Below, piece after piece: positions 1 to 5,286 of a DNA stretch of 64,000 bases. How positions within the stretch are numbered: the stretch's first letter is position 1; each line of letters opens with the position of its first letter. The stretch is from Microthrixaceae bacterium. GTDB taxonomy: Bacteria; Actinomycetota; Acidimicrobiia; Acidimicrobiales; Microtrichaceae. The DNA lies in contig JAMLGM010000010.1 of the NCBI GenBank assembly GCA_023957975.1, positions 1-64,000 on the forward strand. Direction: 5' to 3'. Made by a program: the position numbers and the translations under genes. Below the pieces are notes generated by a model. That model did no database searches and was not told where the DNA came from. It saw nothing but the letters and a program-made list of their open reading frames with translations.

Positions 1-1194
1 ACTTCGATAACCAGCGTTCCACTCAGCGCGGGCCAACAATTCGTCGAAAGTGATGATCTGAGGGTCAATGATGTTACGACGAAACATTTCGAAGCTGCGA
101 AATTTGCTGTCGACGACGCCGCCATGCTGTCCGGTCAGCTGGTCGAGCGAACCGACGACGACATATGAACGGGGGCGCAGGAGGTAGGTGCCTGAGGAAA
201 GCACTTCGCCCTCGTCAGATTTGTCAGCCAAAAAGGTCCCGAGACTCTCGCAAGCGGCTTGGACTGTTTGCTGGATCTGTACGACTGCACCAGTTAGGTG
301 CTTTGAAGGACCCCAGCAGTCGGCACGGTACTCAGAATTCTGTAGCAGTTCTGTCCGGTGGTGTTTGATTTCTGCGAAGACCATTGAGCTGATGAACCCG
401 GCGCTTCGGAGCAGAGCATCGACCCGCTTTCCGGAGCTATCGATGTTGTGTCCACGGCCCGTTTGTTCAAGTCGCCTCGGGTCCCAAGCAGTCAAGAGCT
501 GCTGTCCAAGCCCAACACCCAGCACCCACTGGTTGTCTTCAAGCAACTTCTGCCAAGCTCGTTCCTCGCCGCCTGCAGCACTGCTCGCAGTGTCGAACGC
601 CTCATCATCCGCTAGCCACTGGCGCATGGTGTCGACTACATCGCGCCGGCGTCGCAGGGCAATGATGTCCTCAGCGTCGGCGTCGCTCTCGACGACTGCG
701 CGAAAGCTACCTGGGTCCTTCCTGTAGAACTCAGCCACGGCACCCGGGTCGGAAAACACGGCATCGAGAAGGTCGTCGTCGACGCGTACGCCTTTGTCGC
801 CCTCCACCGGGATCGAGTCGAGCGATTTGATCACACTGATCAGCTTCGCGGCCTGTGAACGATCCAGGGTCAGCAGGTTCTCGAGCTGCGATGACTCTCC
901 GTTCACCTTGACCTTCTGCAGCCGAATCCTCCGTACGGCTCCGCGCTCCCGTGCGATATGCATTTCGATCTGTACGCGCTTCGCTTCCGTCACGTGAATG
1001 ACCTCACAACTCGTCTCCCACCCGTCGCCATCTTCGACCTCCACCTCGTCGAACACGCGATGCAGATACCGGCCGGGGTGCCCGCTGTCGCTACCGAATC
1101 GCGTAGAAAAGCTCTTGGTGAGGTACGTGCGAGTCGGAAGTCTGCCAAGCGCGTATGTCACGTCGGTAACGACGCCGTCGTCGAAATCAATCAC
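1..1194 (-). CDS. sduA: Shedu anti-phage nuclease SduA (DUF4263), C-terminus cut by window edge
   Basis: An uninterrupted reading frame runs on the minus strand from 1194 to the window edge (398 codons, no stop seen). The C-terminal half has the DUF4263/Shedu signature. The helix E210-E-R-A-W-Q with K-L-L-E-D-N-Q-W-V-L-G is followed by a PD-(D/E)xK-like core: D259 in 'KRVDALL', then E275-I-K277 in 'VFAEIKH', then a conserved region with 'CWGPSKHLTGAVVQIQ' and a tail 'NIIDPQIITFDELLARAEW'. SduA is a single-gene anti-phage nuclease. The N-terminal ~190 residues are a separate, unrecognised domain, probably sensory. GTG at 1194 is chosen because GGGAGG lies 8-9 nt upstream; GTG at 1221 or 1248 would also be in frame. 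Base composition looks less GC-rich than its neighbours, which fits transfer. It lies directly behind ssrA on the same strand. Confidence 0.88.
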   Translation of the reverse strand, partial: MIDFDDGVVTDVTYALGRLPTRTYLTKSFSTRFGSDSGHPGRYLHRVFDEVEVEDGDGWETSCEVIHVTEAKRVQIEMHIARERGAVRRIRLQKVKVNGESSQLENLLTLDRSQAAKLISVIKSLDSIPVEGDKGVRVDDDLLDAVFSDPGAVAEFYRKDPGSFRAVVESDADAEDIIALRRRRDVVDTMRQWLADDEAFDTASSAAGGEERAWQKLLEDNQWVLGVGLGQQLLTAWDPRRLEQTGRGHNIDSSGKRVDALLRSAGFISSMVFAEIKHHRTELLQNSEYRADCWGPSKHLTGAVVQIQQTVQAACESLGTFLADKSDEGEVLSSGTYLLRPRSYVVVGSLDQLTGQHGGVVDSKFRSFEMFRRNIIDPQIITFDELLARAEWNAGYRS

Positions 1195-1290
1195 CGAAGA
1201 AGCCCTCCCACCTCGTGTCACTTCGCCACACGGTGCGCCTGGAGTCACGGCCAGGCGCCACAGCAGTCGAATATAGGGGAAGGGATCCCC

Positions 1291-1326
1291 GAATTCAGGG
1301 GAACCCTCCCGCTGAATTCAGGGGAA
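1291..1326. repeat. 13-bp direct repeat between ssrA and the Shedu gene
   Basis: GAATTCAGGGGAA occurs at 1291-1303 and again at 1314-1326, just outside the 3' end of ssrA. The arms also give short GC-rich hairpins, so this could be part of the ssrA terminator. It could also be remnants of an attachment site, because ssrA 3' ends are common integration targets. No second att copy can be tested in this window. Confidence 0.5.
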
Positions 1327-1336
1327 ACCCCCGAAG

Positions 1337-1717
1337 TGGAGCTGGGGAGAATCGAACTCCCGTCCGCTCGGCGGTCACTTGACCTGCTACGACTATTCCC
1401 GTGAATGTGGCTCTACGGCTGCCACGCCGCCGGGTCAGTTGAACCGAGGTTCACCGCCGGGTCTTTCCCCGATGCCAGTGGTCTTTCTCACCGTCAGCGG
1501 TCTCTCCCTGCTGTCCACCGCTACTTCTGTTGCCGGGCTGTAGCGATCTGGCCCCGTGCGGCATTGCTGCTCACGATGTCTCTCTAGACCTGATCAGATC
1601 AGGCGGCGAGAGCGAAGTCGCTATTGGCGCTTCTTTTGGTTGCCCTGTTTAACGAGTCTGAGCAACTCGAGTCGCATGAACAAGCTTCCGGTCCCAACGT
1701 CGAAACCCTTCAGCCCC
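1337..1717 (-). ncRNA. ssrA: tmRNA (ssrA)
   Basis: The minus strand starts GGGGCTGAAGGGTTTCGAC and ends with a T-arm (GGGAGTTCGATTCTCCC) and CAGCTCC plus discriminator A. The 5' GGGGCUG pairs fully with the 3' CAGCUCC, one pair being G-U. CCA is not encoded. The tag frame lies at 1599-1643: resume codon GCA, then ATKRSANSDFALAA and TGA, giving the canonical ALAA degron. The RNA rescues stalled ribosomes together with SmpB, which is encoded 3 kb away, and tagged products go to ClpXP, whose subunits are also in this window. Length (~381 nt) is normal for a one-piece bacterial tmRNA. Confidence 0.96.
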
Positions 1718-4809: not shown

Positions 4810-5286
4810 TCAGGCGCCGTACTTGAGGCGTCGGCCCATCTCGTTGCGGGCCTCTCGCTCGGCGTCCTTCTTCGCGATGTCCTGGCGGCGGTCGCCCTTG
4901 GTCTTACCCTTGGCCAGGGCGATCTCCACTTTGATGCGCCCATCTTTGAAGTAGATCCGCGTCGGCACGATCGAGAGCCGATCGGCCATCTGCTTGCGGC
5001 GGATCTTGTCGATCTCGCGCCGATGCAACAGCAGCTTTCGGACCCGAAGCGGATCGTGGCCTGAATGGGTCTGGCTGAACGCGTACGGCGCGATGTGCAG
5101 ATTGTGAATCCACAGTTCGCCGTTGGAGATCTGACAGAACGCCTCTTTGATCTGCACCTGCGCCTCGCGCATCGCCTTCACTTCGCTTCCGCGCAAAACG
5201 ATGCCGGCCTCGAACTCGTCGAGGAGGTGATAGTCGTGGCGGGCGGCCCGATTGGTCGCGACCACCTTGATCTCGGGCGTTTCCAT
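4810..5286 (-). CDS. smpB: SsrA-binding protein SmpB
   Basis: The 158-residue protein has the whole SmpB family pattern: 'ATNRAARHDYHLLDEFEAGIVLRGSEVKAMRE', 'IHNLHIAPYAF', 'RKLLLHRREIDKI' and the basic tail 'ALAKGKTKGDRRQDIAKKDAEREARNEM'. That tail folds in the ribosomal mRNA channel. SmpB binds tmRNA and is needed for trans-translation. The gene lies about 3 kb from ssrA on the same strand, a short actinobacterial spacing. It converges with the OsmC gene. Confidence 0.97.
   Translation of the reverse strand: METPEIKVVATNRAARHDYHLLDEFEAGIVLRGSEVKAMREAQVQIKEAFCQISNGELWIHNLHIAPYAFSQTHSGHDPLRVRKLLLHRREIDKIRRKQMADRLSIVPTRIYFKDGRIKVEIALAKGKTKGDRRQDIAKKDAEREARNEMGRRLKYGA

Follow-up and report, generated by a model that had tools for sequence, protein, structure and literature searches.

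The window, i.e. the whole analysed stretch of 64,000 nucleotides, starts with the first base of contig C10 of a Microthrixaceae bacterium, whose genome of 3.6 Mb is assembled in 28 contigs. At its left end the minus strand reads ssrA, a spacer with direct repeats and then a gene for a Shedu nuclease, in the order given by a preliminary description made from the sequence; all three were confirmed, ssrA with ARAGORN and Rfam and the Shedu gene with Pfam and PADLOC. The features are as follows:

1336-1717, minus strand: ssrA (tmRNA; ARAGORN, Rfam), the 3' end of which is the presumed target site
1333-1337, minus strand: ACTTC, putative left target duplication; the right side, on contig C19, is ACCCC
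1321-1332, minus strand: GGGGGTTTCCCC, outer left tip, with inverted counterpart GGGGAAACCCCC on contig C19
1314-1326, minus strand: TTCCCCTGAATTC (also given as GAATTCAGGGGAA), first terminal repeat copy, at the outer end of the element
1291-1303, minus strand: TTCCCCTGAATTC (also given as GAATTCAGGGGAA), second terminal repeat copy (motif search)
1269-1281, minus strand: TTCCCCTATATTC (also given as GAATATAGGGGAA), third, degenerate terminal repeat copy (sequence)
1235-1258, minus strand: GCGCCTGG-8-CCAGGCGC, perfect 8-bp hairpin between the array and sduA (sequence)
1203-1209, minus strand: GGGAGGG, probable ribosome-binding site of sduA (sequence)
1-1194, minus strand: sduA (Shedu nuclease, SduA_C domain), probable start GTG 1194, 3' end lost at the contig start

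The tmRNA was called by ARAGORN with the tag ANSDFALAA and matched Rfam RF00023 with 92 bits. A homologue of smpB, identified by sequence reading, is situated about 3 kb upstream of ssrA (window 4810-5286, minus strand), with several unrelated genes in between.

The sduA gene is cut shortly before its stop codon by the start of contig C10, and its start is probably GTG 1194 and not 1248, as chosen from the ribosome-binding site and the N-termini of homologues. Its product matched Pfam SduA_C (SduA_C/DUF4263 nuclease domain; 9.6e-28), the PADLOC SduA model PDLC00394 over nearly the whole protein (6.7e-121) and the solved SduA of B. cereus, 8ti8 (3.7e-11). The D/E/K nuclease core noticed at the outset is kept: D277, E293 and K295 (D-x15-E-x-K), together with E261, are invariant in eight aligned sequences, the seven relatives being from Corynebacterium, Actinomyces, Dermacoccus, Kribbella, Corallococcus, Agromyces and Caulobacter. 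A role of SduA in host defence is putative. The N-terminal half, which had been thought to be a new type of sensor, has no Pfam domain, yet it is conserved in most of the seven aligned relatives and is covered by the PADLOC Shedu model; for these reasons it is not peculiar to the present gene, and the idea of a new sensor type is not supported. The predicted fold (pLDDT 44) was too poor to judge this domain. As for occupancy of the ssrA site in related genomes, a comparison proposed in the preliminary description, it is sporadic, SduA having been detected in 2 of 198 genomes of the order.

The spacer begins its repeats about 10 bp past the ssrA 3' end. The 13-bp direct repeat reported earlier is real, and it belongs to an array of three copies, TTCCCCTGAATTC, TTCCCCTGAATTC and TTCCCCTATATTC, which are 23 and 22 bp apart from start to start. 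The array matches itself at 12/12 positions at an offset of 23, a value equalled in 0 of 200 shuffles, and the 13-mer, allowing at most one mismatch, occurs three times in 3.6 Mb (C10:1291, C10:1314 and C19:23203; control 0); the array is not due to chance. The hairpin at 1235-1258 may possibly serve ssrA as a replacement terminator, a function suggested by its sequence and position.

The occurrence at C19:23203, located 500 bp from the end of the 23.7-kb contig C19, supplies the second repeat copy that the preliminary description had proposed to look for, and it marks the other end of the insertion; the interior side of the repeat copies faces a contig end on both C10 and C19. Towards the contig end, an AAA_15 ATPase gene (Pfam 1.4e-13) begins after the C19 motif; its best PADLOC matches, from 57 residues only, are AriA and GajA. 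On its outer side stand the inverted tip GGGGAAACCCCC, then ACCCC and then a perfect terminator hairpin (C19:23158-23189). With up to three mismatches this hairpin was found three times in 33 genomes of the bacterial family, namely in G211 and G218, directly after ssrA in both, and on C19; because it otherwise occurs only directly after ssrA, C10 and C19 are taken to bracket one insertion. Outside the right end, ACCCC-AAGATCCGCAG aligns gap-free with ACGAT-GAGATCCGCAG of the sisters G211 and G218, in which the latter comes directly after GCTCC of ssrA. Moreover, the ORFs downstream of ssrA in genome G192 resemble DUF2207, prfB and secA (as judged by reading), and their counterparts are on host contig C19. 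The simplest reading of these sequences is that C19 would be the original downstream flank of ssrA, now parted from it by an element.

The insertion between ssrA and its terminator would thus hold sduA, an assembly gap and the AAA_15 (GajA/AriA-like) gene; C10 and C19 are not physically joined, and the end of C19 had no overlap beyond chance with other contigs of the host genome. No copied ssrA 3' end, which had also been looked for on the earlier proposal, was present at the C19 junction, where about 5 bp precede the ssrA terminator. The two sides of the target duplication, ACTTC and ACCCC, are identical in three of five bases; in four related elements the 5-bp duplications are exact. These observations favour a transposon that entered between ssrA and the terminator of this gene and produced a short target duplication.

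C19 also carries, immediately beyond the right end, a broken frame resembling the HsdR C-terminus (by eye; no Pfam match) and an ISL3 transposase (L007:8999-10780; G000:C19:20998-22779), which may be what is left of an earlier defence island.

Arrays follow ssrA in 10 of the 22 ssrA 3' flanks of the bacterial family and are of several sequence types. When the 33 genomes were searched with the array pattern, ten matches were obtained. Seven of them, from five genomes, come after ssrA, and two are at head-to-head junctions; the remaining one, in G213, comes after tRNA-Ala and is almost identical to the array of the host. At the head-to-head junctions (L074, G222:C116:4303; L073, G220:C19:768) two element ends are a few bases apart, an arrangement that tandem insertion at a single site, or the junction of a circle, would give. 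A DDE transposase gene or its remnant adjoins the array in G203, G222, G213 and G167, and G019 has another type of array with a transposase relative that is 37% identical. The transposase has invariant D156, D282 and E460. Its C-terminal part gave a match to DDE_Tnp_1_6 and a weak one to the NCBIfam IS1182 model (39 bits for the G203 protein, with a cut-off of 270); no solved structure related to its profile was found.

Directly upstream of intact transposase genes, commonly with a 1-base overlap, there is an accessory gene, translationally coupled to that of the transposase. The profile of its product matched the tyrosine recombinase XerA (4a8e; 1.6e-7). Among catalytic residues assigned by eye, the first Arg is kept in 1 of 13 sequences, His and Tyr in none of 13, and the second Arg is invariant; by these residues, the protein is predicted to be a catalytically dead homologue of tyrosine recombinases. 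A further divergent gene of tyrosine-recombinase type (L075:11818-12582; 1.3e-15) accompanies the G203 element, and the G210 element has a DUF6788 gene in its place. Single-protein scans of viral contigs returned no matches. Neither the transposase nor the accessory homologue was found in the host assembly, so that the host element is either non-autonomous or has these genes in the assembly gap. The array, the ends and the target strongly suggest that the host copy belongs to this family of tRNA/tmRNA-end transposons.

Target preference was counted for the 32 transposase genes that have 350 bp of flank or more. A tRNA or tmRNA 3' end faces 23 of them at a distance of 78-272 bp, where about 0.1 of 32 would be expected by chance, at about 50 tRNA genes per 3.5 Mb by our own estimate; the RNA genes are tRNA-Ala, -Arg, -Gly, -Leu, -Met, -Ser, -Tyr and -Val, and tmRNA. 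For ten of the 32, which come from a search across the phylum, the accessory protein was the sole basis of selection, and six of these ten have such a facing end. A repeat with a period of 20-26 bp (p <= 0.05) was present in 15 of the 23 flanks facing a tRNA or tmRNA. For the other 9 of 32 transposase genes no tRNA was detected within 350 bp. Two of these nine adjoin an apparent interrupted tRNA-Met (L107:7157-7677 and L110:2444-2800; read by eye); the sequence reads as the 3' half of tRNA-Met, broken near the anticodon, perhaps by an intron, and received no ARAGORN call.

Right ends were located for five related elements only, in G110, G142, G210 and G461 (two). Exact 5-bp duplications flank four of them: GCCAC in G142 and GCCAC in G110 (both at tRNA-Ser), ACCAA at tRNA-Met and ACAAG at tRNA-Gly of G461; at the tRNA-Met of G461 a terminator-like hairpin stands on the far side of the element from the tRNA. 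The gene nearest to the tRNA in complete relatives is that of the transposase, not one of the cargo. Restriction or Abi genes are carried by three of the four elements with exact duplications: the G110 element has an EcoRI-type methylase, a GmrSD_N/HNH nuclease and AbiD (type II RM plus AbiD), and of the two G461 elements one has restriction and specificity subunits of type I, the other restriction and methylation subunits of type III. The G142 element has an AlbA_2 protein, weakly linked to defence, and no cargo was seen in the 3.1-kb element of G210.

With a probability of roughly 0.75, we regard the region as the left end of a transposon that entered at the ssrA 3' end, presumably moved by the machinery of this family, and that carries sduA as its first cargo gene. 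Most likely, the transposase would bind the two to three left terminal repeats (spaced by ~23 bp) and their inverted right-end copy. Recognition of the tRNA-like 3' end would fall to the inactive recombinase, which would recruit the transposase, and insertion would then take place at the final bases of the RNA gene with a 5-bp duplication. The RNA gene would stay intact and be parted from its own terminator. The roles of both proteins are proposed from homology and from the anatomy of the elements, and the same applies to which protein binds what and to the presumed mobilisation of the host copy by the family's machinery. That sduA belongs to the cargo of these transposons is suggested by one genome: outside the host genome, no transposase of the ssrA-end family was found beside sduA relatives. 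A pairing of ssrA and sduA in Actinomyces oricola (L127) was taken as coincidence, the two genes being 6.5 kb apart with no family transposase nearby.

The presence of mobile DNA at the ssrA 3' end with sduA as its first gene, as supposed in the preliminary description, is upheld; what the evidence does not favour is an integrase island with a copied ssrA end, and the repeat, rightly connected with the insertion machinery, is best read as a terminal array of a transposon. In a classical integrase island, i.e. a prophage or integrative element, the array would represent arm-type integrase sites. Such sites of the lambda type are likewise short direct repeats, and ssrA 3' ends are classic sites of integrases, but on the far side the ssrA terminator stands after about 5 bp, with no copied end, and in relatives the arrays adjoin transposase genes, not integrases, with 5-bp duplications; we regard this origin as improbable. 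A native role of the repeats at ssrA, as a regulatory element or as its terminator, would agree with their beginning at its 3' end and with their G/C-rich inverted stretches, but it is scarcely credible: 12 of the 22 flanks have no repeats after ssrA, the repeat sequences are of several different kinds, the same array stands after tRNA-Ala in G213 and the native terminator is located elsewhere, and on these grounds the explanation was rejected.

More weight, although it is still unlikely, should be given to an old transposon end beside which sduA arrived separately, for example by recombination in a hotspot of defence genes. The transposase is missing and sduA occupies its usual place, relatives of sduA elsewhere are located in unrelated contexts, and the HsdR-like frame and ISL3 transposase are just outside the right end. 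Against this, both ends persist and bracket sduA and a second gene of defence type, with the displaced terminator outside. The transposon carrying sduA as cargo thus remains our preferred reading, and it accounts for a defence gene behind ssrA.

Beyond this locus, and with somewhat less assurance, we favour the existence of an Actinomycetota-wide transposon family with independently evolved Tn7-like targeting, in which an IS1182-like DDE transposase is guided by an inactive tyrosine recombinase to the 3' ends of ssrA and of many different tRNA genes, so that restriction, Abi and Shedu genes spread from one safe site to another. No description of such a family was found in the open-access papers searched, and it is apparently undescribed. 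The combination of array, tRNA/tmRNA end and 5-bp duplication provides a way to find and bound defence elements missed by integrase-based searches.

The cargo of the host element is, like other Shedu systems, a single-gene system having the DUF4263/SduA_C nuclease domain with D-x15-E-x-K; it differs in its N-terminal half, which is that of one subgroup (PADLOC PDLC00394), mostly from Actinomycetota here. Specificity for tRNA and other small RNA genes is known from the Dada transposons (PMC8869645), which are eukaryotic and to which no relation of the present family is shown. IS1182 resembles it in the C-terminal DDE_Tnp_1_6 match and the weak NCBIfam match of the transposase, whereas the present family is far below the cut-off and is set apart by its accessory gene, by its cargo and by targeting tRNA/tmRNA genes. 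Tn7-like transposons produce 5-bp duplications and have several transposase sites per end. They are site-specific DDE elements using safe sites, including those downstream of tRNA genes, with defence cargo (PMC8649781), and the selector of Tn6022 is TnsF, with an inactivated tyrosine-recombinase domain (PMC10293859). Tn7, CASTs and Tn6022 thus share with the present family safe-site DDE transposition and defence cargo, but here the transposase has a distant likeness to IS1182, and its gene is coupled directly to that of the inactive recombinase; in elements L124, L082, L172 and L173, for which part of the ORFs were scanned, no protein matched TnsA/B/C or TniQ. The family would be a second case, independent of TnsF in Tn6022, in which an inactive tyrosine recombinase selects the target; it is paired here with a simple two-gene transposase module, which makes the choice of tRNA ends directly testable.
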